64,000 bases of DNA from Lachnospiraceae bacterium 3-1 (GTDB taxonomy: Bacteria > Bacillota > Clostridia > Lachnospirales > Lachnospiraceae), in assembly GCA_000403255.2 (NCBI GenBank), contig KE159591.1, positions 269,823 through 333,822 of the forward strand, in the 5' to 3' direction. The notes under the pieces are model-generated. The model had not been told where the DNA came from. It saw only the letters and a program-made list of their open reading frames with translations, and did not search any database. The first letter of the stretch is position 1; the number at the start of each line of letters is the position of its first letter. The position numbers and the translations under genes are program-made. This document shows positions 12,837-31,236 of the stretch, one piece after another.

Positions 12837-15659
12837 CTATTTATTAATCTTCACACTTAATTCTTTGCTCCAATCCGTGTAAACCATAACTTTTTTATCT
12901 TTTTGATATCCACGAACTTTATAGAAATATGTTTTCCCTTTCTTCAGTCCGGTGACTGTGTAGGTTTTTCCACCGATATCAGCTACTTTTTTGAAGGATT
13001 TCCCTTTCTTTTGTGATTGATAGATCAAATAATTATTAATATCCTTTTGCTTTTTCCAGGATAAGGTCACTTTCTTTCCTTTTATATTTTTGACAGACTG
13101 TAAAGTCACTGGGGTGGTAGAAATTTTTTTCTGGGCTGTTTTTACTGTATTATTCTGGCAACCAGAAATTTTATTATCCTCAACTGTCACACTATACTTG
13201 TTGGAACTTACATAAATAGGATAAGTCGCTTTCTTTACCGTATTTCCTGTGATTTTTGCTTTTCCCTCATCCACATAAATTCCATAATTTGTCTTATTTC
13301 CTGTCAACTTATTATTTTTTACCGTATATGTGAAATTCTTCCCTTTCATCAAACGAATGGGATTATATTGATTTCCTGAAGAATTCGTTGTGGTCATGGT
13401 ATTGGAGCTAATTTCCATATTACTCTTGGCTCCTGCCACACGCACGCCATAAGCTGCCTTTCCTGTCATGGTATTCTTGGAAATCTTTTTCACTGTGCTG
13501 TCATCCGATATTTTTACCACACATCCATCTTTAGGGTTGGAGATGGAAATTGTATTTGATAATATGTTTTTGGCTGTTGATTTGTCTGTAACATAGATAC
13601 CATGCTTTTTTGCCCCTGAAATCTTATTTTCCGATATCTGGGAAAATTTACTTAAATCCAAATAAATACCACACTCCTTGGGATTTTTAATGGTATTTTT
13701 ACGAATCTTTCCTTTTACAACTCCACCGTTCCCACCTGCGATTCCATTGGTTCCTGCATTATTGATAACATTATTGTATATATCCTTTTCCACAGTAGAC
13801 TCATAAATCTCAATTCCTACTTCCTTTGTATTCGAAACTGTATTGCTATATATGCTCCGTACAAAAGACATCAAATGAAGGTAGATGCCATGCTCACCTG
13901 TTTTATCTACCGTATTATTGCAAATATCTCCTCTCACTCTTGCATGAGTATCAACGTAAATTCCAGAAAGGCATCCTTGTTTGCCTCCCTTTTTAATTTC
14001 CTCTTTCCAGCCCTTACTTGGTTTGTAAGTTCCACTGTTGGTTACAACATTATTTTCAATATTGCCTTTGACATGAGCAGTATCCTGATACACTGTGCTC
14101 TTACTTGCTGCCGGGCCCGAATAAATAGCAATTGCTGCATATGTCACATTATTTATTTTATTTCCGCTGATTTTTGTACAGTATGTATCTGCCTTCATCA
14201 TACTGTCTACAATAATTCCATAATCTCCTTCATTTCCATTATGGTTTCCACCGATTTTTTCCAATCGGTTATTACTGATTGCCCCACAATGAGATGCATG
14301 ATAAATTCCAATTCCATCCCCAGTACAATTGGTAATCTCATTATTTTCTATATTTCCAGCTACCACACTTCCTGTTTTGGAATTTCCACCCTTTCTCTCT
14401 GTCAATCCTGTAATAAGTATTCCAGTTCCTTTTCCATCCTGAACTTTATTATTAGCTATTTTACCTTTTACCGTACACTTTGTATAAAGCTGAATCCCAC
14501 TGTCTACAAAATTTTTCACAGTATTCCCAGATATATCCCCTGTGACAGAAGCTTGGTTAGACAAATAAATTCCATGTTCCCCTATTTCATTTACAGTATT
14601 ACTTGAAATTGCAGATGCTTTCGCGCCATCGGTAAGATAAATTCCCAAAAAACATTTATTTACTGTATTTTGCCCTATCTTTCCTGCCGCTGCGCCTCCT
14701 TTTAAATAAATTCCATTTACTTTCTTATCCGCTTTTGAAGATATACCAATCACAAAATTATTGGTCACCTCTGACAAAACTGTTTTTTCGCCGTCTAAGC
14801 TTATCCCTGCATCTGTGAAGTTCTGCATTCTACAGTTCTTAATGGAAGACACTGGTGTTTGTTTTAACGAAATTCCGCCGATTCCGCCATGGCAGCTGAC
14901 AGAGTCTATACTTTTAAATTCTGAATCTTTTGCATAAATTCCATTTTCTGTGTAGTTTTTAAAAACAGTATCTCTTAAAGATATTGATGAAGCCTGATTC
15001 GTATAAAGCCCACCGCCGTCTATGGTTCCCCCAGCAATGGAAACACGATTCACACCAGGTTTTATATATAAGGCATACTTACTGTTTTTACCCGTATATT
15101 TTATTGTACCATTCTGTAAATTTAAGGTAACATCTGAATTAATTGTAATATCATCCGATACATGCAATACAGCTCCATTTGCCATATTTAATGTAACATA
15201 ACTAGGAATAGCTAATGCAGATGTAAACTTATAATCACCCGTTTTTATAGTAATTGTACGGGGATTGGAAACAGTAGCGGATTGTGCCGCTTTTAAGGCG
15301 GCTTTCAACTCTTCTGCACTTCCAACTGTTATCGTTTCTCCTGCTGCTAACTCTGTTTTTTCAACATTTACTGTTTCCTCAGAAATAACGGCCTCACTGC
15401 TTAGGCTCCTTGGCCTCTGAATGTCTCCTTCTCCACTTTCTTCCAATAACTGCTCTGAGTCCTTACTCTCTTCCAATAACTGCTCTGAATTCTCACTCTC
15501 TTCCAATTGCCTTTCCTCTGGAATCTCCTCAAAAAATTCCTCCTCCATAGATTTCTCCACAGACTGCATTCTAACCCCTGAAACTTCTTGTGCATTTACG
15601 ATCATGTGGCTGCTGGTTAAAACAATTGCCAGACATATGGCTACTATCCTTCGTTTCAT
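12837..15659 (-). CDS. Secreted right-handed beta-helix protein with C-terminal Fn3-like domain
   Basis: This 940-residue protein starts with a signal peptide (about 1-23). A Glu/Ser-rich linker with 10-residue repeats (EQLLEES, about 45-75) follows, then a small EELKAAL-containing cap near 115. A long parallel beta-helix spans about 130-830 and is built from turns of the ISxNxV/GIYL type, as in pectate-lyase/NosD-like folds. It ends with a Fn3-like module (about 855-940: VTLSWKK, GKTYFYKVRGY). Such helices bind or cleave polysaccharides; no catalytic residues can be assigned. It is probably a surface glycan-binding protein or lyase acting on the polymer made here. It has its own promoter and terminator. 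No LPXTG anchor is seen. Confidence 0.85.
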   Translation of the reverse strand: MKRRIVAICLAIVLTSSHMIVNAQEVSGVRMQSVEKSMEEEFFEEIPEERQLEESENSEQLLEESKDSEQLLEESGEGDIQRPRSLSSEAVISEETVNVEKTELAAGETITVGSAEELKAALKAAQSATVSNPRTITIKTGDYKFTSALAIPSYVTLNMANGAVLHVSDDITINSDVTLNLQNGTIKYTGKNSKYALYIKPGVNRVSIAGGTIDGGGLYTNQASSISLRDTVFKNYTENGIYAKDSEFKSIDSVSCHGGIGGISLKQTPVSSIKNCRMQNFTDAGISLDGEKTVLSEVTNNFVIGISSKADKKVNGIYLKGGAAAGKIGQNTVNKCFLGIYLTDGAKASAISSNTVNEIGEHGIYLSNQASVTGDISGNTVKNFVDSGIQLYTKCTVKGKIANNKVQDGKGTGILITGLTERKGGNSKTGSVVAGNIENNEITNCTGDGIGIYHASHCGAISNNRLEKIGGNHNGNEGDYGIIVDSMMKADTYCTKISGNKINNVTYAAIAIYSGPAASKSTVYQDTAHVKGNIENNVVTNSGTYKPSKGWKEEIKKGGKQGCLSGIYVDTHARVRGDICNNTVDKTGEHGIYLHLMSFVRSIYSNTVSNTKEVGIEIYESTVEKDIYNNVINNAGTNGIAGGNGGVVKGKIRKNTIKNPKECGIYLDLSKFSQISENKISGAKKHGIYVTDKSTAKNILSNTISISNPKDGCVVKISDDSTVKKISKNTMTGKAAYGVRVAGAKSNMEISSNTMTTTNSSGNQYNPIRLMKGKNFTYTVKNNKLTGNKTNYGIYVDEGKAKITGNTVKKATYPIYVSSNKYSVTVEDNKISGCQNNTVKTAQKKISTTPVTLQSVKNIKGKKVTLSWKKQKDINNYLIYQSQKKGKSFKKVADIGGKTYTVTGLKKGKTYFYKVRGYQKDKKVMVYTDWSKELSVKINK
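15441..15510. repeat. 30-bp tandem repeats in the linker of the beta-helix protein
   Basis: Two 30-bp units (15441-15470 and 15471-15500) differing by a few bases, plus the first ten bases of a third, encode the EQLLEESxxS repeats of the N-terminal linker. Copy-number change would alter linker length in frame. Confidence 0.85.
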
Positions 15660-15697
15660 ATCTTCTCCTCCAATACTTTTGTCAAATTGCCGCTTTT

Positions 15698-15726
15698 ATT
15701 ATACATTTTCCTGTTTACTCCGTCAA
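15698..15726 (-). promoter_or_regulatory. Promoter of the beta-helix gene
   Basis: TTGACG (15721-15726) and TATAAT (15698-15703) are separated by 17 bases, a near-consensus sigma-A promoter on the minus strand 39 bases before the start codon. The short inverted repeat gtcaagattttgac overlaps the -35. This is among the strongest promoters seen in the window. Confidence 0.75.
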
Positions 15727-15773
15727 GATTTTGACCTTATTCGCTCTTTCTCTCTGGATCCTGTCCAATCTTT

Positions 15774-16865
15774 TTATTCCTTTTTCTTTGGACGCCCAAT
15801 AAGAACAGGGGCTTTTTTATTTACAAATTCCACCACACCATATTCAAAAATCAGAAGATGACAAAGCGTCATAAGACATTCGATATAATATTTGAGGCAC
15901 ACTTCTGATGATAAGGAAACTACATTGGCCCATCCCTTCACTATGATAGACTTAAATCCCAAGGCCCCATGAGTTGCCATCAGAATCAATGAGTTGCGCC
16001 CACACCATGTAAGAATGGGAAATTTATAATACTTTTCTAAATACTCCAAAATCAACATAAAGCCCACAGATCCACACAAAGCACAAATTATATACAATGT
16101 GGGATAAATACCAAAACGCATATTATTGTAATCTACGACTCCGGTATTAAATGGAAAAATCAAAATATTAGTAAAAAATAATACCACACCTAACACGAAA
16201 CGATACCGTTTATCTGAAAATTTTTGCAATAGCAAGTACAACAAATATCCTGCACCAAGAAAAAGAAATCCTGTAATTCCTTTTGTCAGAGTGAGAACAG
16301 GTATACGGATTATTTTATAAACATTGCCGGACACCATTCCCTCAAGCGTATGAAATGCACCATCCGTTCCAAAAAATACAATAAGCGCCAGGCTCACACA
16401 AAATATTCTTCCGATGAGATGGAGACGCATAACTAGGAAAAAGATAACCTCTGCAAAAAGCAGTGTGGTCAAAAACCATAACGCCTGAATTCCACCGAAA
16501 GACATAGTTTTGTATAAATCAACCGCCAAATCTTTGATCTGATCAACGGTCTCCTTCTCTTTTAGAATCCGGGTGCCAATCCGATACAAGATGACAATAA
16601 AGCTAAATGAAAAATATGGGAGCAGCAACATTCGCCCTCTTTTTAACGTAAACTCTTTAAAAGAAGTATCAAAAAGTCTTCCCATGCGGCAAATCAAAAA
16701 ACCTGAAACAAGAAAGAAAATGGGTATCTTAAATGTACTGAGCCATCTGTCAATTGGGTTTCCTAAAGCAGTAATATGTCCAAACATAACCCCCAGAATT
16801 CCAATCCCCTTGGCGGCATCCAAAAATATTAAACGTTTTTTGTCCTTATCCATCTGCACCATCAT
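15774..16865 (-). CDS. Acyltransferase-3 family membrane protein
   Basis: This 363-residue protein has about ten membrane helices and opens with RLIFLDAAKGIGILGVMFGH, the N-terminal motif of the acyltransferase-3 (OafA/NolL/WecH) family, with the conserved His in GH and a following Arg/Lys-rich loop (LKRGRMLLLPYFSFSF near 76). Such proteins move acetyl or similar groups across the membrane onto extracytoplasmic sugars. It sits at the end of the MBOAT/ACP/ligase cassette and may provide a second, acetyl-type modification of the same polymer, which is inference. The start at 16865 has GGAGG five bases upstream. It lies 11 bases after the DUF4886-type gene. Confidence 0.85.
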   Translation of the reverse strand: MMVQMDKDKKRLIFLDAAKGIGILGVMFGHITALGNPIDRWLSTFKIPIFFLVSGFLICRMGRLFDTSFKEFTLKRGRMLLLPYFSFSFIVILYRIGTRILKEKETVDQIKDLAVDLYKTMSFGGIQALWFLTTLLFAEVIFFLVMRLHLIGRIFCVSLALIVFFGTDGAFHTLEGMVSGNVYKIIRIPVLTLTKGITGFLFLGAGYLLYLLLQKFSDKRYRFVLGVVLFFTNILIFPFNTGVVDYNNMRFGIYPTLYIICALCGSVGFMLILEYLEKYYKFPILTWCGRNSLILMATHGALGFKSIIVKGWANVVSLSSEVCLKYYIECLMTLCHLLIFEYGVVEFVNKKAPVLIGRPKKKE

Positions 16866-16876
16866 AAAGTCCTCCG

Positions 16877-18862
16877 TTATTTTTTCGTTTCTGCCTTTCC
16901 TTTTATTGTATTTGAATAAGCGCTGTAATACACTTTCTTTGCTTCTTTCCTATAGGTTTTCACTCTGTAATAATATGTTTTTCCCTTTTTAACAGACCTG
17001 TCATAATAATATACTCTTTTGTTTGTACCAATGGTCGCTATTTTTTTATATTTGCCGCCTTTACTGGAAGCGCGGTAAACTGTATATCCGTTAGCCTTAG
17101 AATTTTTCTTCCATGTAATCTTCACATACTTCTTACTGGTTGCTGTCACCTTGATCTTTACGGTTCCCGGAATCGTCATATCCACTTTTTCACTTAATTC
17201 CGTTTCCGTCAGTATATGTCCTGACACTGCACTGACTTTATAATAATACTTTTTATTGATTTTCGCCGTACTATCTGTATAAGCAGTCCCTTTGGAAGCT
17301 CCAATATATTCATATTGACGTGTATTGCTGTTAAAACGATAAATTCGATATTGCGTAGCCTCAGCAACCTTATTCCAAGACAACCTTATCTTTCCACCAT
17401 TGGAAGAAACCCCCGTAATTTTAGCTGTTAGTTTTTCTGGTTTTTGCCCTGACACATATAACGTATAACTGGCTGATGCACTACTGCTACTGTTGTATCT
17501 TACTTTTATCACCGCTTTTCCCATTTTACAAGCTGTGACTGTTCCATCCGCTGAAACCTTTGCAACCTTGGTATTACTACTGGTCCATTTGTAGGAATCC
17601 CCTTCTTTCCCATTTCTAACCCTGGGTGTCAGCCGAATCCGATCTCCCAGATTTACCTGATAAAAATTTTTTCCAAAACTCAACTGTGGAATAACTGTGT
17701 TTTCTATTGTTACATTACATACTGCCATTAATCCTGTAGTTGTTTTTGCAATGACAGCTGTAGCCCCTTCCCCTACGCCGGTTACGTACCCAGTGTTAGA
17801 ATTTACCGTTGCAATTTCTGGATTGAGACTTTTCCAATACAGTACTCCTCCTGCAGTTGGGGCATCCACTGCTGCCCATAATTGCGCGCCTTTTCCAATA
17901 GACAATTGCAGTTCACTTTTACTTATGGTAATCTTGTCACGAATAAGAGAATTTAACATGGAAAGCTGAACATCATACAAATTACAACCGGACAGGTCTG
18001 TTGACTTTACTGTCGGTTTTTCTCCATATATTTCATGATAGAAACATGCCGCCACGAAATAATATCCCGCATAACTGGGATGCTTTAAATCTGTATCTAT
18101 CATATTAATGGCTGGATGCACGCAACTGCTATGGAACACCTTCATGCCTGCCGGGAGCATTTTCACCCCCAGGTGATTTTGTAATCTGGTGTACGCATAT
18201 AATGTCCTTTCTTGAAATTCCTCTATGGAAAGCATCCGTTTTGTTCCATCCACGTTTGTACTGGTACCATTAGAATAACCTGCCGTCTCATACAAAAGAA
18301 CTTGTGCCTTAGGCTGGTACGCCCTGATATACGTCATAAGCTGCCTAGCTGAAGGAAGCATTTCGTTTTCATACTGCTCAATTCCTGCCTTGGTGTAATC
18401 CTGAAAAATAATATAATCATATGTCTCCCTTTTGAATGCAGACATCATTCTATCAAAATAAGTCTTATATGCCTCCGTCCAGAACGCGTAATAAGACAAA
18501 TATGCTCCATTATTTGCAACTACTCTTACCTTTAAATTCTTGTGATTGGCTTTTGCTAGTTCCTGCAGAATCATGCCTACGTCTCCGTTATTCCGTTTCG
18601 TAAAACTATTTCCAATCATTAGAACCTTCACTTCCGGCTCTACAGGTTCTAGCCCTTCTGTTTCATCCTTTCCAGCATCATCCTTTGTCACATCATCCTT
18701 TGCTGCTTCTGCAGTTTGCGTGGCGTTGTCCGACAGCATGCCAGCATATGCAGCCAAATTTGAACCTCTCCAAATAACAAAAAATAAAAAACAGGCAAAC
18801 AGAAACCTTAAAGATTTTTTTATATTAACCGGATCTTCCATTTTTTTTATAATTGTCTGCAT
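16877..18862 (-). CDS. Secreted DUF4886-type SGNH protein with Ig-like and Fn3-like repeats
   Basis: The protein has 661 residues from the ATG at 18862, chosen for AGGAG seven bases upstream; the longer frame would run into the previous gene. An N-terminal signal/anchor helix (about 14-32) is followed by an SGNH-hydrolase-like domain. VKVLMIGNSFTKRNNGD near 75 has the nucleophile Ser in GNSF, and DLKHPSYAGYYFVAACF near 262 carries the catalytic His. Then come two BIg2-type Ig-like modules (about 300-465) and two Fn3-like modules (about 480-660). The fold suggests an esterase acting outside the cell on acylated glycans. Next to MBOAT and a DltD-like protein it may trim or transfer the acyl group. 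Substrate unknown. Confidence 0.82.
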   Translation of the reverse strand: MQTIIKKMEDPVNIKKSLRFLFACFLFFVIWRGSNLAAYAGMLSDNATQTAEAAKDDVTKDDAGKDETEGLEPVEPEVKVLMIGNSFTKRNNGDVGMILQELAKANHKNLKVRVVANNGAYLSYYAFWTEAYKTYFDRMMSAFKRETYDYIIFQDYTKAGIEQYENEMLPSARQLMTYIRAYQPKAQVLLYETAGYSNGTSTNVDGTKRMLSIEEFQERTLYAYTRLQNHLGVKMLPAGMKVFHSSCVHPAINMIDTDLKHPSYAGYYFVAACFYHEIYGEKPTVKSTDLSGCNLYDVQLSMLNSLIRDKITISKSELQLSIGKGAQLWAAVDAPTAGGVLYWKSLNPEIATVNSNTGYVTGVGEGATAVIAKTTTGLMAVCNVTIENTVIPQLSFGKNFYQVNLGDRIRLTPRVRNGKEGDSYKWTSSNTKVAKVSADGTVTACKMGKAVIKVRYNSSSSASASYTLYVSGQKPEKLTAKITGVSSNGGKIRLSWNKVAEATQYRIYRFNSNTRQYEYIGASKGTAYTDSTAKINKKYYYKVSAVSGHILTETELSEKVDMTIPGTVKIKVTATSKKYVKITWKKNSKANGYTVYRASSKGGKYKKIATIGTNKRVYYYDRSVKKGKTYYYRVKTYRKEAKKVYYSAYSNTIKGKAETKK

Positions 18863-18878
18863 ATGCTCACTCCTGCTA

Positions 18879-20222
18879 TTAAAATGCAATATTGACTTCC
18901 GACTCATGAGTCGGGTCACCACTCATTCGAAAAGTAACTGTGCATACTCCATGTTCTTCAGGGGAAATCTCAAAATACCGTTCTTTTGCAAAATCCTGCA
19001 CTAAATATTTCTCTCCATCTTTTGGCGTAATCTGAATACGATATTCCATTCCCTCATATCGGTTGGAAACCACCTTTACCCTTCTAACCTTTTCCTTTGT
19101 TGATGAATCTTTGATCTCCTTATAGCTCAGCCCGTATACCTTTGGCGGCAAATTGGACAATTTTTCTGCACATGACTGATAGAACATCTCTTCTTGTGTC
19201 ACCTTACCAGTTACTAAATCTACCACAAGATTACTGAAAATTTCTGCACCCTCGGCATTCAAATGATTATTGTCCTGGAACAAAGTATTTGTATCTGGAA
19301 AATATTCCTCTCTACAAAGATTAAAATCGTAATATTCAATTCCGGTACCTTCAATCAATTCTTTTACCTTCTCAATATAGTCGTCATAATTGCCGCGCCC
19401 TGCTGTAAAATACGTAGAAACTGGTGTCGCCACCAACCTTAACTTCACATCATTTTTTTTGCAATAATCTATAATCTGAAACAAAATCTCTGACCAAAGA
19501 TCCGGCATCGTATCAACGTTAATCGAACTGTAGCCAGCCGTATCAAAAGGATTTTCTTCTACTGTCTCATCACCAGCAATAAAACCTTTGCCCTGATAAT
19601 CATCCATATATTCATAATTTTTATATGCATCTGTACTCTTCTTTTGCAATACATTCCCGATATACTCTCTGTCTAATAGCTTGTCCCAATTTCTTCTGGC
19701 AAGCAAAAAACTATTTGCATAGCATTCAGGCGCCGTACTCTTTGTCAAGAGATTCACTTTCCTCATAGAGGGCCGTAAATAATCCGAAACAATGTAAACA
19801 TCCGTCAAATCCTCGCTCCGGTTCACTTTACTGCTGCGGGCAATGGTAAAGCTCATCTCCAGATAAACCTCCTTGAGATCATACCGTTCCACTGCTTCCT
19901 GAATCAATGCGTAGGAAACATCCAATGGCTGACGGGAACTTCCAATACAAAAGGAATTTACTCCAAGCCTCTCATCAAAAACAGAAGTCATAAAAGCACG
20001 ATAGCTATGAGACGCTCCTACGAACAAAACATCTATATTATCCTGATTATAAAACTCATGCATGGTAAGCCTTGTATAAGAGGATGTATCATCAATTAAA
20101 ATATAGCGTAGCCCCTGGTTGATTCCCAACACCATCGCTATCACAATAAAGAGAGCAAAAATACGTTTAAAAATATGGGCCGTTTTCATCATCCATGCCG
20201 GCCGATCCTGATCAATCTGCAT
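18879..20222 (-). CDS. Membrane-anchored DltD/AlgX-like SGNH protein
   Basis: This 447-residue protein has an N-terminal membrane anchor (about 16-36) and an extracytoplasmic SGNH-like domain: VLFVGASHSYRAF near 64 (Ser in GASHS) and FQDNNHLNAEGAEIFS near 318 with the Asp-x-x-His pair. Such proteins (DltD, AlgJ/AlgX, PatB) work with MBOAT proteins to move acyl groups onto extracellular polymers. Its gene follows the ligase gene with an 11-base overlap (GTATATGCAGATTGA), a sign of coupling. A good ribosome site, AAGGAAG, supports the start at 20222; a second ATG is at 20192. About 130 C-terminal residues are not recognised. Confidence 0.82.
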   Translation of the reverse strand: MQIDQDRPAWMMKTAHIFKRIFALFIVIAMVLGINQGLRYILIDDTSSYTRLTMHEFYNQDNIDVLFVGASHSYRAFMTSVFDERLGVNSFCIGSSRQPLDVSYALIQEAVERYDLKEVYLEMSFTIARSSKVNRSEDLTDVYIVSDYLRPSMRKVNLLTKSTAPECYANSFLLARRNWDKLLDREYIGNVLQKKSTDAYKNYEYMDDYQGKGFIAGDETVEENPFDTAGYSSINVDTMPDLWSEILFQIIDYCKKNDVKLRLVATPVSTYFTAGRGNYDDYIEKVKELIEGTGIEYYDFNLCREEYFPDTNTLFQDNNHLNAEGAEIFSNLVVDLVTGKVTQEEMFYQSCAEKLSNLPPKVYGLSYKEIKDSSTKEKVRRVKVVSNRYEGMEYRIQITPKDGEKYLVQDFAKERYFEISPEEHGVCTVTFRMSGDPTHESEVNIAF

Positions 20223-22254
20223 ATACTACTACTTCCTTCTTTTTCGCTAATAGTACTCCATCTGCTATGGGATATCCCAGTGCCACCATAGACCACACTC
20301 TATGGTTCTCAGGAATATCAAATCCATCCAAAACCGTTTTTACGGGTTCTGCATTCCGTAAAGTTGACAAAGCATTCAGCCATACAGAACCAATACCGTA
20401 GGACTGTGCTGCCAAAAACATATTTTCTGCTGCACAAGATGCATCTTGACATCCATTGACATTTCTCTCATCATTAGAAATTAATACAAGACAAGCTGGA
20501 TTTTCGAATCCATAGCAGTACACCTTATGTTCCTTTGCTGTTACAACTGCTGCTTCTTTTAGCCGCTGAATATTTTCTTTTTTCCGAATGACAGTAAACC
20601 GCCATGTCTGCATATTATGCCCAGATGGAGCATAATAACCAGCCTGTAAAATCATCTCCAGGATATTATCTGGAATGGCCTTATCCTGAAATTTCCGAAT
20701 ACTCCTTCGTGTTAAAATAGCCTGCATTACAGGATTCATCAATGTTTGATCCCCGTTTGACTCCCACATAGCTCGCAAAGCTTTCCGGTCTATCTTTAAC
20801 ATTCTGTTTCGTGGCAATTCAGAAATACAAATGTAAATGACCGGAATCTTATACCGTTCCATCCGAGTGGAAAGCCACTTACGTATATCATCTTCTGAAT
20901 ATTGATTATTTCTGACAACAACATATAACGCTGGCACAAACCCTAGAATTCCTTCTGGATCTGGGACCCCTATGCATGCACATTCCACAATGTTAGGGTA
21001 TTCTGAAGCAATATTTTCAACCTCTATCGGAGATACCTTCTCCCCACCTACATTGATAATATCATCGGCTCTTCCCAGCATATAAACAAGCTCATCTTCT
21101 ATATAAATCATATCACCAGTAAGTAGCCAGCCGCCCTGGAGGGTTTTTGCAGTCTCCTCCGGCTGATTCCAATATCCTGCCATCTGCATATCGCCTTTTA
21201 AGGCCATTCTGCCTGGATGTTCTCTATCGCTTACAATCTCTTCTCCTGCCTCATTCAACACCTTAACTTCCACATTCGGCAGTGGTTTTCCTAATGCCCC
21301 CACTTTCACAGGATCAGACGCCACTGCCGTGACATCCAAAAACAAAGCTCCTCCTGTCTCAGATGACCCCCATGTATTATAAATCTGTGTATTTGGCAAA
21401 ATACTTGTCAAATTTTTTCTCTGTTCTATTGATAAAGACCCTGCGCCTGCTTCAATCAAATGGAAGCGCCCCATAACCTCCGCAAATTTATCCTGCATCT
21501 GTCTGGAGATTGTTTCCACAGAAGCCGGCACTACTGACAAGGCCGTACAATCATATAAATCCAGATTATTCTCAATTTCCTTTGCAAAGGTAAATCCATT
21601 TTGAAGTATCAAAGTAGCTCCTCGGTAAAGCACCGCTCGAAGTACTCTTAATGCAAAAGAATGATTTAATGGCAAAGGCAGCAAAAGGCGTTCTTCTTCT
21701 TTCAATCCTATCCCCGCAAGAGTATTAGATAAAATCTGATACACAGCTTTAAAAGTCAAAATAACGCCCTTTGCACGTCCTGTAGTACCGCTTGTAAATA
21801 ACAATTCTGCAATTGTATCTTCCTTGGGCAATTCATATACGACTTCTGGAAGCTGCTCCTGTTCTTCATCTTCAGAGCATATTTGCCGCAGAGAATAGGT
21901 TTTGCATTCATTTGCATATTCTTTTAATGGTTTATCTGTCAGGAAAACAGCAGCATTTGTATCTTTATAAATAAATGCAGCATTTTCAGGCGTTGCATTC
22001 TTGTCAATAAATACTGCTACCGCCCCACAGAAATGAATCCCAAGATAAGCAGACACCATTTCTGTTTTGGATACTGCTGAAAATAAAACACAGTCCCCTT
22101 TTTTCACTCCCAGCCATGACAGTCTTCGGGCGATCAATTCCATCCGTTTTGCCAGCTCTCCATAAGTCAATTGTTCTTTCTTAAATGCCACAGCCAATTT
22201 GTCTGGCTGTTTTGAAGCCAATTCCAGTATACGATTTACAAGGGTATCATACAT
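20212..22254 (-). CDS. AMP-forming acyl ligase fused to nitroreductase
   Basis: This 680-residue fusion has an ANL adenylation enzyme at about 1-500: LLFTSGTTGRAKGV near 152, NTWGSSETGG near 295, WLLTGDMIYIEDELVYMLGR near 375, DDIINVGGEKVSP, and the catalytic Lys region RNRMLKIDRKAL near 485. A nitroreductase-family domain follows at about 507-680: LTRRSIRKF at its start and APSGHNMQTWRF near 542, both FMN-binding signatures. The ligase half is expected to activate an acid as acyl-AMP and load the carrier protein encoded 4 bases upstream, as DltA does. The flavin half could oxidise or reduce the carrier-bound acyl group, like oxidase domains of nonribosomal synthetases; that is inference. DltA is normally about 500 residues without this domain. 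Confidence 0.88.
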   Translation of the reverse strand: MYDTLVNRILELASKQPDKLAVAFKKEQLTYGELAKRMELIARRLSWLGVKKGDCVLFSAVSKTEMVSAYLGIHFCGAVAVFIDKNATPENAAFIYKDTNAAVFLTDKPLKEYANECKTYSLRQICSEDEEQEQLPEVVYELPKEDTIAELLFTSGTTGRAKGVILTFKAVYQILSNTLAGIGLKEEERLLLPLPLNHSFALRVLRAVLYRGATLILQNGFTFAKEIENNLDLYDCTALSVVPASVETISRQMQDKFAEVMGRFHLIEAGAGSLSIEQRKNLTSILPNTQIYNTWGSSETGGALFLDVTAVASDPVKVGALGKPLPNVEVKVLNEAGEEIVSDREHPGRMALKGDMQMAGYWNQPEETAKTLQGGWLLTGDMIYIEDELVYMLGRADDIINVGGEKVSPIEVENIASEYPNIVECACIGVPDPEGILGFVPALYVVVRNNQYSEDDIRKWLSTRMERYKIPVIYICISELPRNRMLKIDRKALRAMWESNGDQTLMNPVMQAILTRRSIRKFQDKAIPDNILEMILQAGYYAPSGHNMQTWRFTVIRKKENIQRLKEAAVVTAKEHKVYCYGFENPACLVLISNDERNVNGCQDASCAAENMFLAAQSYGIGSVWLNALSTLRNAEPVKTVLDGFDIPENHRVWSMVALGYPIADGVLLAKKKEVVVYAD

Positions 22255-22258
22255 ATCC

Positions 22259-22495
22259 TTAGCCCTCCTTACTCTGAAGTTTTGTCACCATTTTGGCCAG
22301 ACCAGCAATTGAATTAAAATTCTCTTCAATAATTTCTTCATAAGGAATTGTAATTCCAAACTCCATCGTCAAAGTTGCAATAATGCCTGTAATTGTGAGA
22401 GAATCCAAGATTCCATCATCTACCAGTGCATTGCTGGATGTAAAATCCACATCTGGGTACTCTTCTGTTAAAAGCTCTAAAATTTTTTCTTCCAT
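22259..22495 (-). CDS. Acyl carrier protein (DltC-like)
   Basis: This 78-residue acidic protein has the four-helix carrier pattern, with the phosphopantetheine attachment Ser in DDGILDSLTITGII near residue 36. It is the size of DltC and other small carrier proteins. It lies between the MBOAT gene (9 bases) and the ligase gene (4 bases), so the ligase should charge it and the MBOAT protein should accept its acyl group at the membrane. The start has AGGAGG upstream. The dltC symbol is not given because the cargo may not be D-alanine. Confidence 0.9.
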   Translation of the reverse strand: MEEKILELLTEEYPDVDFTSSNALVDDGILDSLTITGIIATLTMEFGITIPYEEIIEENFNSIAGLAKMVTKLQSKEG

Positions 22496-22504
22496 TTTTT
22501 CCTC

Positions 22505-23989
22505 CTAATAGCGTTCATATGCAAATGAACTGGCATCATATCCAGTGCCATATATGCCCAACATAAATATTGATACGAATGCAACTGCATAAAAGCTCCA
22601 TCTTGCCAGTGCATTCCAACCTGAAATTCTTTCCCTGATACTAGATTTTTCCTGTTGTATCCCTACAATCCATAAAATCCCTATGGATAGAACCAGAAGT
22701 TTCATGTCAATCTCTGCAAGACCTAAGGTGTAAATCGTTCCATCAAAAAGCTCCCACAGACGAAAAGAATGTGTCATTCCCAGCAAGATTTTCCAGGAAT
22801 TCCTTAGAGAACCAGGGGCTGTAATCAATCGTCCCACACAGAAAATAGCGGTGGTCCGAACCATCTGAAACAATTGCCAGGAAGAAGCCTCTGTGTTGAT
22901 ATGCAAGAATTTATTAAATTTTTTAATCTCCGGGGCAAATACGGTTGTGGTTATAATAATGGCTCCCCAATAAATTCCCCAAAGAACATAATTCTTCCCC
23001 GTTCCATGCCACAAACCTGTCAACAGCCAAACCACTGCAAGGGGAATCACATTCATCATCGCCTTACCGGTCCGCTTTCCAAAATGATTTCTGACCCATG
23101 TACTAAATTTAATTAATCTTGGAGAGATAACAATTGGCATATATACATAATCCTTAAACCATGCACCAAGTGTAATGTGCCATCTTCTCCAGAATTCAGC
23201 CGCACTTTTTGAAAAAAATGGCCGTTTAAAGTTATTTTCCAGCTGAATGCCTAAAATCTGAGATATCCCAATTACAATATCCATATATCCGGAAAAATCA
23301 CAATATAACTGTACCGTAGACAATATAACTGCCATTGTCAGGATTGCTCCACTTTCCAGATAGTTATCAAGTCCTCCAAATACTGTATCCACAAAAATAG
23401 CAGCCCGGTCGGCAATTACAAGTTTTTTAAAATATCCCCACATTGCCAACTGCACTCCGGCACACAAATTATCATAATCAAACTCATGCCCTTCCAGTAA
23501 CTGCCCGGCAATACTCTTATGCTTGGATATGGGGCCTTGGATAATTTTGGGAAAATAAAGTGTAAAAAGAAGTAATTTCAAATAATTTGTTTCCGCTTTT
23601 TCTTTCTTCCAATATACATCTGCCAAGTAACCAATCAAGGAAAATGTATAATACGATATCCCAAGAGGTACCACCAGCCAACGGTATTGCCATCCATAAT
23701 GAGACGATACTTTTGTTAAAGTCAAAAAACCAAGTAAAAGAACTACCGCAGCTGACAAAAGTAATCTCTTCTTTTTTATATCCTGGGATGCTTTTTCCAT
23801 CCAGATTGCCGCAAAATAGGTGATAGCAACTGTTGCGCAGGCAATGCAAAAAATATCCAGGCCCCCAGCGAGATAAAAATAGCAACTGCCCACCAGAAGA
23901 ACTATCCACCGAACCTTCTTTGGCACTATAAAATATATTATAATTAAGGCCGTCATAAAAAGAAAAAAATAAATAGATGTTAAACTCAT
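22505..23989 (-). CDS. MBOAT family membrane acyltransferase (DltB/AlgI-like)
   Basis: The protein has 494 residues from the ATG at 23989; the start matches typical MBOAT N-termini (SLTSIYFFLFMTALIIIYF then VPKKVRWIVLL). About ten membrane helices follow, with QGPISKHKSIAGQLL near 163, YSGYMDIVIGISQILG near 225 in the form FSGYMDIVIG, and WRRWHITLGAWFKDYVYMP near 262. The catalytic His lies in VWLLTGLWHGTGKNYVLWG near 325. It passes an acyl group from the carrier protein through the membrane to an outside acceptor. It is the first gene of the acylation cassette. No strong ribosome site is seen before 23989, only GGGATAAAG. Confidence 0.9.
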   Translation of the reverse strand: MSLTSIYFFLFMTALIIIYFIVPKKVRWIVLLVGSCYFYLAGGLDIFCIACATVAITYFAAIWMEKASQDIKKKRLLLSAAVVLLLGFLTLTKVSSHYGWQYRWLVVPLGISYYTFSLIGYLADVYWKKEKAETNYLKLLLFTLYFPKIIQGPISKHKSIAGQLLEGHEFDYDNLCAGVQLAMWGYFKKLVIADRAAIFVDTVFGGLDNYLESGAILTMAVILSTVQLYCDFSGYMDIVIGISQILGIQLENNFKRPFFSKSAAEFWRRWHITLGAWFKDYVYMPIVISPRLIKFSTWVRNHFGKRTGKAMMNVIPLAVVWLLTGLWHGTGKNYVLWGIYWGAIIITTTVFAPEIKKFNKFLHINTEASSWQLFQMVRTTAIFCVGRLITAPGSLRNSWKILLGMTHSFRLWELFDGTIYTLGLAEIDMKLLVLSIGILWIVGIQQEKSSIRERISGWNALARWSFYAVAFVSIFMLGIYGTGYDASSFAYERY

Positions 23990-24085
23990 AACTTTATCCC
24001 ACTGCTTTCTGCTTGTCTCAAAGCTACTAAAATGGGCGTTTCTGGCACCCAACGTATATTATACTACATTCATTATATTGGAAAG

Positions 24086-26011
24086 TCAAGTTTTTTCCCC
24101 TTGGCACTGTTGCGCTTTATTGATGTTTTTTCCTAATTCAAAATAAAACAAAAACCAAATAGGCTGTAAAAACATTCTCTCTAAATTCATAAACATGGAC
24201 AATACAACAAAAGAAAAAACCACTGAAAGACTCAAAAAATTTTTTCTTTTCCATACAGCGGAAACTCCGCCTGCAATTAACATAAGATACGGTATGATAG
24301 TGAATACTCCATATGAGTAAGCAATTTGCAACACCCCATTACTAGCGTCCATCCATCTTCGAAAAATGGTAAGAGTAGTATCATGTCCTTTCAGATTTAG
24401 GTGCCTGATATAATTTCCCCATACTGCCTGCCTATCCTTTCTGACAGCTTCCTGCCGTTCCAGTAGGCTTCGTATTCCAATCCCATTCTCATTTCCTGGT
24501 ACTGCCTCCTGCATTATCTCATACCTTTCATTTGTATATACAATATCTGTTCCCAGTTTCGAGGGAAGAAAACGATCCAAATAATGTACACTTCCCACCA
24601 CTACCGCCGACATAATCAATGAAACTACAATCAAAGCCATAGAATCTTTGATTACTATCCAACTTTTTCGTTGTTTCCACACAAATAAAAGAAAAACGAA
24701 AAAGCAGGTCAGCAGACACAAAAATGATCTGGCACAATAAATATAATACAAGCTGAGAGAAAGTCCAACTCCATTAGCCAAAATCTTTGTTATATGGCAG
24801 ATTCCTTCCCGCAGTTCTTCATTCCATTTTACCAAAAATGCAATCCAAACGCCTGTCATATAAAGAGCCATACTTTCACTGTCAGAAAAACATCCATTGT
24901 ACAAAATTCCTGGCGTATTCTCCCGAAAGATCAAACAATAAGAAACAATAATCGGGAAAATTCCAGTCAATCCCTGGACCATATCCTTAAGAAAAAAATC
25001 ATATTTTTCTGTATTCTGCCATAAAAAAAACACAAAACCAAAAATAATCCACAGAAAAAAACCTGCATAAGGAATATCCTTTTTTACTAATATATCTGAA
25101 ACAATTAAAAACGTACAAAAAGCAAGCCAGCCTGCGGCCATTGGATTTCTCCAGTCTTTTTTTTCCAATGGTTTTTCCCAGGACAAACATGCAATGATTA
25201 TCAACCCAAGCATCATTCCAAGAATACAATATCTGATCATCACTATATTTCTATTGTTGTATGATATGTTCAATGGAATCATCAATAAGAATAAGATTTC
25301 AAACAAACCAGTTCTTACGATTCTCCTTGTTCTCCCAGAAAATCTTTGATATAAATATGAACCTGCTCCATCCCCTACTGGGATGTAAAATCTCTGAGTC
25401 ATTTTGATTGCCAGATACCAATCATAATTTTTAAACAGATAAAGTATTCCGCTTATTACCAAGTATCCACAGAATATCCATACAATTTTCCACAAAAATC
25501 TCTTAATGCCAAAAAGAGCTTTTTTCTGGCATAATCTGGCAGCATGAATAGAAAACGTAGCTCCCTGCTGTCCAGAAATCTCTATCATAAAGAAAGAAAC
25601 CTTACTATTTACGTTAACATTAATATAATTCCATCCCTCTGTAACCACAGTCTCTACTGCCCGGACTACCGTTCCTTGTTCATTAAAAAAAGAAATTCTC
25701 CAGTACAAGTTTTCCGGTTCTATTTCCTCTAATTGAAAAGCTATTTGTTTCCATTTTTTTACATTGGACTCCACATCAAACCAAATCTGCCCAGGGTTCC
25801 CACTGACCTGGAAACCCTCTCCAACATACTGGCATGTATCCGTTCCATTTCTCAATTCATCAGAACTGAAATCATAAATGACTCCATCAGACCAGAAATT
25901 TTTCTGGTTGATTCTTCCATTTCCATGCCAGAGAAAAGCCAACATGGAAGATAATATAAAGCCCGTCATTATCCAGACATATACGTTCCATTTTTTTCCG
26001 CTATCAGTCAT
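24086..26011 (-). CDS. Polymerase/ligase-like membrane protein with outside beta-rich domain
   Basis: The protein has 641 residues from the ATG at 26011, which overlaps the previous stop (ATGACTGA); a start at 26032 is possible. One N-terminal helix (about 12-30) is followed by an outside domain of about 140 residues with a jelly-roll-like pattern (QIWFDVESNVKKWKQIAFQ, WYWRISFFNEQ-like strands). Then come about eleven to twelve membrane helices with a long loop near 480-560. The overall plan is that of Wzy/WaaL O-antigen polymerase or ligase proteins. The N-terminal domain is unusual and may bind glycan. Role in polymer assembly is inferred from topology and neighbours. Confidence 0.65.
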   Translation of the reverse strand: MTDSGKKWNVYVWIMTGFILSSMLAFLWHGNGRINQKNFWSDGVIYDFSSDELRNGTDTCQYVGEGFQVSGNPGQIWFDVESNVKKWKQIAFQLEEIEPENLYWRISFFNEQGTVVRAVETVVTEGWNYINVNVNSKVSFFMIEISGQQGATFSIHAARLCQKKALFGIKRFLWKIVWIFCGYLVISGILYLFKNYDWYLAIKMTQRFYIPVGDGAGSYLYQRFSGRTRRIVRTGLFEILFLLMIPLNISYNNRNIVMIRYCILGMMLGLIIIACLSWEKPLEKKDWRNPMAAGWLAFCTFLIVSDILVKKDIPYAGFFLWIIFGFVFFLWQNTEKYDFFLKDMVQGLTGIFPIIVSYCLIFRENTPGILYNGCFSDSESMALYMTGVWIAFLVKWNEELREGICHITKILANGVGLSLSLYYIYCARSFLCLLTCFFVFLLFVWKQRKSWIVIKDSMALIVVSLIMSAVVVGSVHYLDRFLPSKLGTDIVYTNERYEIMQEAVPGNENGIGIRSLLERQEAVRKDRQAVWGNYIRHLNLKGHDTTLTIFRRWMDASNGVLQIAYSYGVFTIIPYLMLIAGGVSAVWKRKNFLSLSVVFSFVVLSMFMNLERMFLQPIWFLFYFELGKNINKAQQCQGEKT

Positions 26012-27527
26012 TTTGGCATCCCTGCTTCCCATCTTGTATCATCAAAAATCCAACTGCAAAATAGAATGAGCTCCAAATCTGCCATACCATTGGCAGATCA
26101 TCTACAGATTCGATCATAGCCGAAATCACATACGTAAGCAAAATTCCCATCACCAGAAAAGACGTTTCATTTTTCCTTTCACATTCCCAATAGAGAAATG
26201 CCCTTCGGAATACTTCTATTAATAAAACAAATATTAAAATTCCTGCAAAAATCCCATATGTGTGCATCATTTTAAGAAATACATTATGGGCATAAGCGGA
26301 AACTCCGCCTACCAGCGCATCCCCTTCATGTCCCCAGAGATTCATCTGCATCAGGTATCCCTGCCATATGGTCAAACGCCCAGAAGTCATTTCATCCAAG
26401 GTACTGGCAGCGCCTTTCTTAGAAAATAGCGCTCCGCCTTTCACTGCAAATACCGCAGCAATAATAAGAAAAACAACCATCAATATGGCGAATACTCTAG
26501 AAGGAGATATCTTGATATTTTTTATTCTTCTTCCCAAAGCAAACAAACATGCCCAAACAAATAATACAATGCAAGATAAAATTGCCGTTCTGCATTGGGT
26601 TAACAAAATTAATCTGCAAGCAAACAAAAGCCCTGCCAGATAAAAAGTAATTTTCCAATACCGCTGTTTTTTTGAAAAAATCTGAAAGATACGATAAAGC
26701 ATAACCAAAACAAACAACACCAACATAATAGAAAAGGGATTGGGATTTTTCCACATTCCAGGGTAAAGAAATTCAGTGATATATAAGAATTCTTTTTTAT
26801 TCCACCATGGTTCTATGAAAAGACAATATCCTATGGTCAAAAGGTATAAAATCTCTACCGCCCTTGCAAAATCATTCCATATCTTTTCTGGTTCCTCTAT
26901 TCGCTCCCATGCCCGATAGAAAATACCAAAACTTGCCAGCATCCATAGTCCCAAAAATCCTGTCTTCTTCTGTATCACAAGATCTGATAAGATCTGTAGC
27001 AAACATAAGGAAAACCAGGCTATTTTTACTCCATTTAACTTATATTCGCATTTACGTTCTGGCAAGGTCCATACCGTCAGCATATAAAAAAACGCTAACA
27101 TGAAAATTACAGTATAGCCATAATATTTTCTAGCTCCTGCCATATGAGCCAAATAACCCACCCCTAGAATAAATGCTATCAGAATACTCCTAATCGTTGT
27201 TGTATATTGAGCACTGATCCTGGGCTTTTTAATATGCTCCAAAATAATATCTATCATTGATTCAAAAAATGACCATATTTTTTCCCCAATGCTTCTTACC
27301 CTAAGACAAAGCTTTTTTATCTGTTTTTGCACCAAAAAAGAGAATATAGATAACAGAAAAAAACAGCCAACGGAAAGCAGAATATATTGTTTCATATGAT
27401 ATTCTGCTCCATTTTCTGCACAATAAAACTGTGATAAATTTCCATTCGTCATGTACATAGCTGCAATTGCAAGACTCACGAAGCATTCCTGCAACATCCA
27501 ATATAAAAGTAAACGTTTTTTTTCCAT
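26004..27527 (-). CDS. O-antigen ligase/polymerase family membrane protein
   Basis: The protein has 507 residues from the ATG at 27527; a GTG at 27551 is an alternative. It has about twelve membrane helices and the Wzy_C-type loop: TQCRTAILSCIVLFV near 300, MTSGRLTIWQGYLMQM near 375, and SAYAHNVFLKMMHTYGIFAG near 405. The AHNxFLxxxxxYG pattern is the best-known signature of O-antigen ligases and Wzy polymerases. It probably polymerises a repeat unit or transfers a finished chain to its carrier. It overlaps the next membrane protein gene by 8 bases, so the two may act together. Its start is 29 bases downstream of the stop of the glycerophosphotransferase-like gene. Confidence 0.82.
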   Translation of the reverse strand: MEKKRLLLYWMLQECFVSLAIAAMYMTNGNLSQFYCAENGAEYHMKQYILLSVGCFFLLSIFSFLVQKQIKKLCLRVRSIGEKIWSFFESMIDIILEHIKKPRISAQYTTTIRSILIAFILGVGYLAHMAGARKYYGYTVIFMLAFFYMLTVWTLPERKCEYKLNGVKIAWFSLCLLQILSDLVIQKKTGFLGLWMLASFGIFYRAWERIEEPEKIWNDFARAVEILYLLTIGYCLFIEPWWNKKEFLYITEFLYPGMWKNPNPFSIMLVLFVLVMLYRIFQIFSKKQRYWKITFYLAGLLFACRLILLTQCRTAILSCIVLFVWACLFALGRRIKNIKISPSRVFAILMVVFLIIAAVFAVKGGALFSKKGAASTLDEMTSGRLTIWQGYLMQMNLWGHEGDALVGGVSAYAHNVFLKMMHTYGIFAGILIFVLLIEVFRRAFLYWECERKNETSFLVMGILLTYVISAMIESVDDLPMVWQIWSSFYFAVGFLMIQDGKQGCQND

Positions 27528-27556: not shown

Positions 27557-29539
27557 CTAAACCAATTTTAACTCTGCAAGCTTCTCGTAAATTCTTTCTA
27601 CATTTTTTCCATCATGAAATTCATTGATACTGTTATAATTTTCTTCATGCTCTTTTGTTCTGGCAACATCCAGCACAATTTTCTGGTTCTGGATTATCTG
27701 GCCAAGTATATCTTCAAACTCTTGTAAATCAAAAGCTCTCAGTCCAATATACTCCTCATCCCTTGGAATTAAATTGCCGCACACCTCTTCATACTCTTCA
27801 ATATCCTCTTGATAAAACAGCACTGCCGCTCCCTGGTAAAAGCTATTGTAAGCCACTGAAGAATAATCTGTAATCATCAATTTTGTTATTTCCAGCACCT
27901 GACTGATGGGACGATTCCACATACGCTCTTTTAAGGAAGTGGTTTCCAACAGATACTGTATCCTTGGATGGGCTACAATCAAAATCTTTTCCTCGGGAAC
28001 ATAATTTTTCAAGATATCATATAACTCTATAATCGCATGATAATACCTTGACTTTTCAAAATTATCCAGACGCTCCTCATATGGTTTAAAGGTCAGCATA
28101 ATGGTAACAAAATCTTCAGACTCAGCTGTAATATGCTTATAGGGAATGGTGCTGAAAATGGGCAATCCAGTAATCAATACCCGCTCTTCTGGAATTCTAA
28201 GCATATCTACAACAACATCCCTTTCTTTTTCACTTCCCACAAAAATATACTCTGGCTCTGCCTCTCTTCCTGCCACAAATGCAGACGTAGGACCATGGCA
28301 TTTCATGTATGTGACTCCATGCTGCAAAAACACAAACTTTAATTCTATCATTCTAAAACGAATATATTTATTTCCGCTTCGCAAAATGTTAAGATGTGCT
28401 GGCGCTTCTGTGGTAATCACATTGTTTGCTCGATAAACCAGCCAATAATATTTCGGCGAATATTTCAGGACTACATTTTTATCCTGGCAAATTCTTTCAT
28501 AATCCTCTGATTTTGGATCTATAATAAAATAATTGTCAGATGTTTGATTTTCCGATGCAAGAGAGAAAACCTCATACGTTCCCTCTTCCGCTTTCATCGT
28601 TTCTTTTTCAAAATACAGATTCACCTGTTTCTTGGAAAAATTACTTACTATTTTTCCACAATAATACAAGAAACGGGAAACTATTTTACTTTCCCAAAAA
28701 CGATATTTTCCTGTGGTTTCATACTCATCCGCCATCCTTGTCACAAGGACAATATTTCCTCTTGCATTCCTTCTAACAAAAATCATAAAACCATCACGAA
28801 TTATTTTTGCAATGGGGGCAAAATATTTTTTGGATACTTTGACTCTCCATTTTCTCTTTGGCAACCCATAAGGTATTTTAATTCCGTTGACTTCAATCTC
28901 CGCGCTGATATTTTTATCAATTGTGGAAACAGAATCCACAATTTCATCCATCCCCATTTTTATCTTTTGGATGGCGCCGCGCATGATCATTTTTATGATA
29001 TTAGTTTTTTGATCTGTAATGGGAAATTCACACTTACTGCAGACATTATCAGCGCAAACATTCTGTGTCCCTATTTGTAAATTGGAATATGCATTTATAA
29101 AATACCCAACCATACAAATCGAAAGTCTTCTTTTATTCATCCGCAAACTTAATATTTTAATTTTAAATGGCAACAGCCTTTTTAAAATAATCTCTGGCGC
29201 ACCTTTTGTATATTTGATTTTTTTATTAACCGAATACACTAAAATATATTCTCTCTCATCTTTAGGAAAAATATCCGCTTCTGGGTCAATTTCTGCCTGC
29301 TTTTCTTCCTGCTCATCCCCGGACTGTACTTCTCCTGTCTCCAAATCTTCCTCATATGGTTCAAAATAAAGGACACGGCTGCTATCTTCATCTTTCGTTG
29401 CCTTCACATAAGAGCCATAAACCTTGTTTTGTATCAATTCTGAAAGGTCAATCTCTTCCATGTCCAATTCATTTTTTCTTTTCCTGTGATTGTATATGGT
29501 TAATCTCCCATTCTCTTCCTTAATCTCTATTTGGCTCAT
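27557..29539 (-). CDS. CDP-glycerol glycerophosphotransferase family protein (TagF-like), long
   Basis: This 660-residue protein carries the family's catalytic half in its C-terminal 300 residues: LKFVFLQHGVTYMKCHGP near 403, then EYIFVGSEKERD, LITGLPIFSTIP, and LEITKLMITDYSSVAYNSF near 562. The family adds glycerol-phosphate or ribitol-phosphate from the CDP donor during teichoic acid synthesis at the inner membrane face. The first 330 residues are not recognised; residues 65-95 are very acidic. Two smaller relatives lie upstream at 31241 and 32896, interrupted by the tagGH-like exporter genes. Product chemistry is family-level inference; no CDP-glycerol synthase gene is in the window. Confidence 0.83.
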   Translation of the reverse strand: MSQIEIKEENGRLTIYNHRKRKNELDMEEIDLSELIQNKVYGSYVKATKDEDSSRVLYFEPYEEDLETGEVQSGDEQEEKQAEIDPEADIFPKDEREYILVYSVNKKIKYTKGAPEIILKRLLPFKIKILSLRMNKRRLSICMVGYFINAYSNLQIGTQNVCADNVCSKCEFPITDQKTNIIKMIMRGAIQKIKMGMDEIVDSVSTIDKNISAEIEVNGIKIPYGLPKRKWRVKVSKKYFAPIAKIIRDGFMIFVRRNARGNIVLVTRMADEYETTGKYRFWESKIVSRFLYYCGKIVSNFSKKQVNLYFEKETMKAEEGTYEVFSLASENQTSDNYFIIDPKSEDYERICQDKNVVLKYSPKYYWLVYRANNVITTEAPAHLNILRSGNKYIRFRMIELKFVFLQHGVTYMKCHGPTSAFVAGREAEPEYIFVGSEKERDVVVDMLRIPEERVLITGLPIFSTIPYKHITAESEDFVTIMLTFKPYEERLDNFEKSRYYHAIIELYDILKNYVPEEKILIVAHPRIQYLLETTSLKERMWNRPISQVLEITKLMITDYSSVAYNSFYQGAAVLFYQEDIEEYEEVCGNLIPRDEEYIGLRAFDLQEFEDILGQIIQNQKIVLDVARTKEHEENYNSINEFHDGKNVERIYEKLAELKLV

Positions 29540-29568
29540 TTTCGCTCCTTGCTTTTTTATTATGTTTT

Positions 29569-31085: not shown

Positions 31086-31105
31086 TTTCTACTCCATATG
31101 TTATC

Positions 31106-31134
31106 TTTTTATTAGTAAATTTCCGTTATGTCAA
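31106..31134 (-). promoter_or_regulatory. Possible promoter inside repeat, upstream of tagG-like gene
   Basis: On the minus strand a perfect TTGACA (31129-31134) precedes TAAAAA (31106-31111) with a 17-base spacer, ending 20 bases before the tagG-like start codon. The -10 matches only four of six positions. The TTGACA belongs to the repeated sequence, so a second copy lies 77 bases upstream. Confidence 0.35.
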
Positions 31135-31159
31135 CCTGCCGTTTGGCGGGCCGCATGGC
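31113..31159. repeat. 47-bp direct repeat, copy 1
   Basis: This copy is identical over 47 bp to 31190-31236. It contains a GC-rich imperfect hairpin (cctgccgtttggcggg) and an A+T-rich end (tagtaaatttccgttatg). The period is 77 bp. The element fills the intergenic space between a tagF-like and the tagG-like gene and resembles a REP- or MITE-type intergenic repeat. Confidence 0.9.
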
Positions 31160-31166
31160 CATCCAT

Positions 31167-31193
31167 ACTATGGAAGTCGTAGACTTTCATAGT
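31167..31193. repeat. Inverted repeat between the two direct repeats
   Basis: The bases actatggaagtc and gactttcatagt form a 12-bp stem with one mismatch and a three-base loop (gta). The right arm runs into the second direct repeat. This could be a small RNA hairpin, a partial terminator or the end structure of a mobile repeat. Confidence 0.75.
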
Positions 31194-31236
31194 AAATTTC
31201 CGTTATGTCAACCTGCCGTTTGGCGGGCCGCATGGC
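31190..31236. repeat. 47-bp direct repeat, copy 2
   Basis: Perfect second copy of the repeat at 31113-31159, ending five bases before the stop codon end of the neighbouring tagF-like gene at 31241. On the minus strand it also carries TTGACA. Confidence 0.9.

Follow-up and report, generated by a model that had tools for sequence, protein, structure and literature searches.

The Dlt pathway uses an adenylating ligase, a carrier and membrane proteins to decorate surface polymers with D-alanine. Here we describe a Dlt-like cassette with an unusual ligase, found in a 64,000-nucleotide stretch of the genome of Lachnospiraceae bacterium 3-1 (assembly GCA_000403255.2, contig KE159591.1, positions 269,823 to 333,822; hereafter 'the window'). 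Four genes encode a DltB-like membrane O-acyltransferase (MBOAT), a small carrier protein, an acyl ligase fused to a nitroreductase (NTR) domain, and a membrane-anchored SGNH-type protein. The architecture is real and conserved. Our preferred reading, to which we give about even odds (roughly 0.5), is that the cassette acylates a surface polymer with a carboxylic acid other than an alpha-amino acid, and that reductive tailoring is built into the loading enzyme.

By homology, the ligase would use ATP to convert the acid to acyl-AMP and then load the acyl group onto the phosphopantetheine arm of the carrier. The NTR domain, with bound flavin mononucleotide (FMN), would alter the carrier-bound group; the likeliest change is that FMNH2 reduces an activated C=C bond in it. 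The MBOAT, again by homology, would take the group over from the carrier onto the Tyr in the FxYxx[F/Y] peptide at its own C terminus. From there, a Ser of the DltD-like SGNH protein would deliver it to a hydroxyl on the surface polymer, here perhaps one containing glycerophosphate. Loading, the acyl-Tyr and acyl-Ser steps and FMN binding are predicted from the comparisons below; that the acid is anionic, that it is reduced, and that the NTR acts on the carrier-bound form are more tentative predictions. Dlt systems are known for adding D-alanine; if the proposal is true, gut bacteria write esters beyond acetyl and D-alanyl on their surface polymers. The fused flavin domain makes the idea of redox tailoring directly testable with purified protein.

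Recurrence of the fused gene

The genes are read from the minus strand in the order MBOAT (22505-23989), carrier (22259-22495), ligase-NTR (20212-22254, 680 residues) and SGNH-type protein (18879-20222, 447 residues). The first three are separated by 9 and 4 bases and the last two overlap by 11, in line with the tight spacing (gaps of 4-9 bases and one overlap) given in the original prediction. In the fusion, Pfam matches a whole AMP-binding domain (PF00501) at residues 13-362 (207 bits) and its C-terminal subdomain (PF13193) at 411-484, followed by a short linker and PF00881 at 513-661 (20272-20718, minus strand). The NTR domain had been described as complete, and it is: the match to this nitroreductase superfamily profile scores 97 bits (cut-off 23.5) and spans positions 1-167, which is the whole profile. 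A chance domain match is ruled out by this full-length coverage. The AlphaFold2 model of the fusion has a mean pLDDT of 87 and a pTM of 0.69.

Two collections were searched for relatives. In a sample of the family, a ligase relative (E<=1e-60) occurs in 23 of 299 genomes and the full fusion in eight. In a second collection, a pattern scan recovered 17 loci, and both domains are present in 16, including one (L047) whose ligase is frame-broken; a Pedobacter locus with 24% identity (L048) was dropped from the loci of this collection. With the window included and three duplicates (of L036, which is from Lactonifactor longoviformis DSM 17459, and of L045 and L046) removed, there are 21 distinct fused loci, a recurrence that rules out an assembly or read-through artefact. 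At E<=1e-75, a threshold that misses more distant relatives, a class sample yielded matches in two of 391 genomes (the window's own, and a genome of the family with an unfused ligase) and a phylum sample in one of 299 (the window's own), with no further fusion in either; outside the phylum, coverage comes from the scan for close relatives. The 19 intact fused homologues are 40-68% identical to the window protein in the alignment. Most fused loci are labelled Lachnospiraceae or other Clostridia and one, L040, is from a rumen metagenome-assembled genome labelled Chloroflexi; its fused protein is 61% identical to that of the window, and either gene transfer or a mislabelled bin would account for the label.

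The original prediction asked whether the fusion keeps company with the other Dlt-like genes across genomes, and it does: an MBOAT is found in 20 of the 21 loci, a carrier in 19 and a match to the SGNH profile in 17. In 15 of 21, the MBOAT gene is followed by the carrier and then by the fusion. The MBOAT is placed after the fusion in L038, L040 and L049, no carrier was found within the short upstream stretch covered in L041, and in L047 two genes are inserted between the carrier and the broken ligase. L047 (8140-12666) also has a second NTR gene in tandem, with the RRSxR motif absent from its start.

The nitroreductase domain and the ligase

In a tree of 48 NTR sequences (21 fused and 27 standalone), a single branch (support 99/97) contains all 21 fused domains together with one standalone sequence, the second NTR gene of L047. 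The frame-broken ligase of L047 was left out of the ligase alignment, tree and pocket counts, so that 20 fused ligases are considered there rather than 21. In the ligase tree (39 rows), these 20 group with the unfused ligases of L053 and L054 (support 99/98), and L052 branches first. The two trees indicate common inheritance of ligase and NTR, and one fusion followed by two losses would be the simplest history, though the root is a midpoint root and some branches are long. Because the 21 fused NTRs share one clade and keep an FMN signature, the fusion looks old and constrained. When each part is compared with the window protein, the NTR shows the higher identity of the two in 15 of 19 rows; the parts are level in L040, and the ligase is ahead in L045, L046 and L012.

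The signature can be seen by comparing residues in the 21 fused domains and 22 standalone NTRs (43 of the 48 rows; the other five are four divergent standalone sequences and the second NTR of L047). R516, S518, R520, A542, P543, N611, N627, G660 and Y661 are invariant in both sets, and Q549 is kept in 20/21 fused and 22/22 standalone domains. Other positions separate the sets. Only the fused domains have G582, D595, R597, N598 and Q603 without exception, and position 597, Arg in these, is Asp or Glu in 15 of the 22 standalone NTRs; Y584, Q628 and G655 are each present in 22/22 standalone NTRs and unconserved in the fused set. This pattern suggests a flavin site that was kept and a substrate side that changed, if the latter residues do face the substrate. 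Conservation, co-inheritance and the retained signature together bear out the view of a Dlt-like cassette with an intact FMN-type NTR. Of 37 PDB sequence relatives of the domain, a protein named Nitroreductase (3ek3, 115 bits) ranks first.

For the ligase, o-succinylbenzoate ligase heads a Foldseek search with the model, and the best 50 of 1949 matches also include FadD13 and the ligases for malonate, anthranilate, coumarate and ferulate. The pocket strand reads LPLNHSFALR. In the alignment, His198 matches a His of both MenE and 4-coumarate ligase, and Arg203 (codon 21646-21648, minus strand; predicted acid pocket) matches an Asn of 4-coumarate ligase. By the pocket numbering of GrsA and 4-coumarate ligase, Ser199 occupies the Asp position of amino-acid enzymes. 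Position 199 is Ser in all 20 intact fused ligases and Ser, Thr, Ala or Val in the ligases of 16 unfused cassettes (of 17 matches in the family sample, with G212 left out). With Asp at this amino-group position in none of the 36, D-alanine is an unlikely substrate. His198 and Arg203 are present in 36/36. Arg206, Glu268, Thr294 and Gly302 are found in 20/20 fused ligases, L052 included, and vary in the unfused ones. This points to a single substrate across the fused clade, though common descent may explain the pattern as well.

The same genome offers a useful comparison, a second Dlt-like cassette (L115, 5690-11196; G000:C22) with an amino-acid-type ligase, a decarboxylase-family protein dependent on pyridoxal phosphate (PLP), a carrier, an MBOAT ending in FIYAQF and an SGNH protein. 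With this cassette present, the fused one is an additional system of its host. The L115 ligase has Asp at position 199 and passes the amino-acid adenylation model TIGR01733 (331 bits, cut-off 317). On the DltA model TIGR01734 it scores 299 bits and the fusion 126, both below the cut-off of 560. The substrate had been proposed to be a carboxylic or an amino acid. An alpha-amino acid finds no support in the comparison of Ser199 in 20/20 fused ligases with the Asp of L115, and a carboxylic acid is retained as our reading.

The unfused relatives bear on what kind of acid this might be. Eleven of the 16 have an MBOAT and 13 a carrier, with neither seen in L059 and L066. A gene for a DASS-type anion symporter lies beside or between the cassette genes in five (L055, L056, L060, L062 and L065), and a gene for an SsuA-like binding protein is found in five others (L057, L058, L059, L066 and L067), four of them with permease and ATPase genes. 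DASS proteins transport carboxylates or sulfate. Family scans were run on L060, L058, L063 and L068, and the remaining members were assigned by blastp clustering: the symporter scanned passes PF03600 and PF00939 and falls below the cut-off of the DASS model, and the binding protein scanned passes NMT1_2 and falls below that of SsuA. Importers of the two kinds thus lie beside 10 of the 16 unfused cassettes and none of the 21 fused ones (7 kb on each side where covered; Fisher p 2.3e-5, uncorrected for relatedness or contig ends). Taken with the conserved Arg203, this weakly suggests an anionic acid, and an acid made inside the cell would fit the absence of importers beside the fusions. The acid-binding Arg of malonyl-CoA synthetase was also looked for, with no result. 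Three further unfused relatives (L063, L064 and L068) have genes for FabG-like short-chain dehydrogenases/reductases (SDRs), which adjoin the carrier and ligase genes in L068 (9277-9999) and L063 (10670-12646) and are perhaps another kind of redox tailoring.

Alternative readings

Several observations weigh against the proposal of an anionic acid reduced on the carrier. A positive residue at position 203 is no proof of an anionic acid, because the amino-acid-type ligase of L115 has Lys there. The top PDB sequence match of the fused ligase is linear gramicidin synthase LgrA, an amino-acid nonribosomal peptide synthetase (NRPS), with o-succinylbenzoate ligase next, and CytC1, an NRPS adenylation protein for an amino acid, is also among the best 50 of 1949 fold matches. 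In L052 (5833-18001; G278:C13), the fusion is part of an NRPS/polyketide synthase (PKS) cluster that has no MBOAT. Albonoursin synthase, an oxidase (8uc3, E 2e-7), is among the 37 PDB relatives of the NTR, alongside enzymes named as reductases. Finally, L054 has an MBOAT, a carrier and a ligase of the fused clade with no NTR, so that the domain is dispensable there.

Two of these loci have features of their own. The L052 fusion is flanked by ketosynthase-carrier, condensation-adenylation-ketoreductase-carrier and adenylation-carrier proteins. Its ligase has most of the same pocket residues, and this relative offers another way to find out what the acyl group is. The MBOAT of L054 (9548-14604, G249) is the one in 31 without WHG, the catalytic motif of the MBOAT family, and its cassette is possibly decaying or re-purposed.

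If the NTR does act on the carrier-bound acyl group, it might oxidise rather than reduce it, in the manner of NRPS oxidase domains, the parallel drawn in the original prediction, or of cyclodipeptide oxidase, and the product would be an unsaturated or heteroaromatic ester. BmdC, which has an NTR-type fold, provides a model for this. In PMC8795117, it acts as an FMN oxidase in the course of NRPS assembly, for which contact with the NRPS is required; its substrates there are thiazolines, whereas no cyclisation domain is seen among the Pfam and NCBIfam matches of the cassette. The kinship with albonoursin synthase and the presence of the fusion in the L052 cluster also speak for oxidation. However, the hosts are probably strict anaerobes, in which reoxidation driven by O2 would be hard to provide. 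This consideration, together with the precedent of FbiB, leads us to prefer reduction and to regard oxidation as unlikely. In FbiB (PMC6450877), an NTR domain fused to a ligase reduces a C=C bond with FMNH2.

Alternatively, the NTR could act before loading, with the free acid or another small molecule as its substrate, or could simply supply reduced flavin, leaving the carrier-bound acyl group unaltered. The annotations of many of its relatives name a general NAD(P)H flavin or nitro reductase, and in six loci (L100-L104 and L106) standalone relatives lie away from any match to the cassette profiles. A single old fusion with residues invariant only in the fused domains suggests instead a dedicated role coupled to the ligase, and we consider this alternative improbable.

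It is harder still to see the NTR as a structural or redox-sensing part with no reaction of its own. The unfused ligases of L053 and L054 fall inside the fused clade, and the ligase can therefore exist without an NTR; against this, R516, S518, R520, N611, N627, G660 and Y661 are kept in 21/21 fused domains, and the NTR is the better-conserved part in 15 of 19 rows. That the cassette performs normal D-alanylation through an unusual DltA, for which the same four kinds of parts as DltA-D might argue, is very improbable in view of the 126-bit DltA score and the missing Asp.

The carrier-bound reduction that we prefer can be extended to a more speculative scheme, which we consider unlikely. Lachnospiraceae would share one export chassis (carrier, acyl-Tyr MBOAT and DltD-like protein) with swappable supply modules: an amino-acid ligase with a PLP enzyme, an acid ligase with a DASS-type or SsuA-like importer, an acid ligase with FabG-like reductases, or the ligase-NTR fusion. 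The module in the window would load an unsaturated anionic acid of the cell's own making (a C4-dicarboxylate such as fumarate, for instance), reduce it on the carrier, and esterify the polymer with an anionic group, and surface charge would then shift the opposite way to D-alanylation.

Export partners, known systems and the polymer locus

The MBOAT matches PF03062 with 52 bits; the DltB model TIGR04091 scores 163 bits, below its cut-off of 375, yet is the sole NCBIfam match. The protein ends in FAYERY (22508-22525, minus strand), and an F.Y..[FY] end is present in all 31 MBOATs examined, a set without L049, where the gene is cut at the contig end; WHG is present in 30 of them. In the window, no frame of 25-120 residues ending in F.Y..[FY], as expected for a DltX-like peptide, was found within 17001-26500. 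The carrier, with the attachment site GILDSL read from its sequence, passes the phosphopantetheine-site model PF00550 (24 bits, cut-off 20.8) and scores 28 bits on the DltC model, below the cut-off of 68. The SGNH-type protein has no Pfam or NCBIfam match. Its AlphaFold2 model, which includes an N-terminal helix at residues 9-42, has a mean pLDDT of 65, with 171 of 447 residues below 50. The DltD crystal structures 3bma and 6pfx come first in a Foldseek search of the PDB with TM-scores of only 0.32-0.39, so that the label 'DltD-like' is a tentative assignment of fold and no more. Ser71 is present in 29/29 profile rows and His320 in 28/28.

According to PMC12148441, DltX shares with the C terminus of PatA an FxYxxF peptide in which the Tyr becomes acylated, and the MBOAT/SGNH pathways other than Dlt are described as using acyl-CoA, with no carrier protein. 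The cassettes seem to draw on a carrier as donor and yet have the shuttle built in, since their MBOATs end in F.Y..[FY] and most have a carrier encoded beside them; such an MBOAT would join two mechanisms that the paper keeps separate.

How, then, does the cassette compare with known systems? It resembles the Dlt pathway (DltA, DltB, DltC, DltD and DltX) in that an AMP-forming ligase, a small carrier, an MBOAT and a tentatively DltD-like protein are encoded together, with, by homology, a carrier-dependent donor. Unlike DltA, the ligase is not of the amino-acid type and carries an NTR, and the peptide motif is on the MBOAT, with no separate DltX found. With the DltA model, the amino-group Asp, the DltB cut-off and a separate DltX all lacking, we regard the cassette as a variant of carrier-dependent MBOAT-SGNH acylation rather than a Dlt system. 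PatA/PatB and other MBOAT-SGNH pairs share the C-terminal FxYxx[F/Y] and the SGNH partner, but as presented in PMC12148441 they have an acyl-CoA donor and no carrier, whereas the cassette encodes a carrier and a ligase beside the MBOAT. FbiB also has an NTR at the C terminus of a ligase; that ligase (PMC6450877) is unrelated (a gamma-glutamyl ligase for F420) and is associated with neither a carrier nor export. BmdC and the NRPS oxidase domains are similar in pairing an FMN enzyme with an adenylation/carrier system, and differ in that BmdC oxidises a thiazoline during peptide synthesis, with no surface polymer involved (PMC8795117). In open-licence full-text literature, we found papers on related subjects and no description of the ligase-NTR/MBOAT/carrier combination.

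The cassette sits within a surface-polymer locus. Upstream and in the same direction are three genes of the CDP-glycerol glycerophosphotransferase family (PF04464; 27557-29539, 31241-32908 and 32896-34143) and an ABC-2 exporter pair (PF00005 and PF01061; 29569-31085), together spanning 27557-34143 on the minus strand, as well as a Wzt-type exporter pair, a sugar transferase and a glycosyltransferase. Downstream genes encode, among others, a polysaccharide epimerase, an aminotransferase, another sugar transferase and glycosyltransferases. The polymer of this locus may be teichoic-acid-like. Among the genes shown for each locus (15 at most), matches to the phosphotransferases appear in the window only, and thus the acceptor may differ among hosts.

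Directly adjoining the cassette downstream (12837-18922) are genes for a protein of 681 residues with Big_2 repeats, an acyltransferase-3 and a beta-helix protein of 940 residues. Elsewhere, a degraded fused cassette (L099; 9241-12093, G198) and an unfused one (L067; 7713-11835, G226) each have an unrelated-looking standalone NTR gene pointing away from the cassette. L099 enters no count and contributed only its two NTR stretches to the NTR tree, where the two standalone NTRs pair on long branches (support 100/99).

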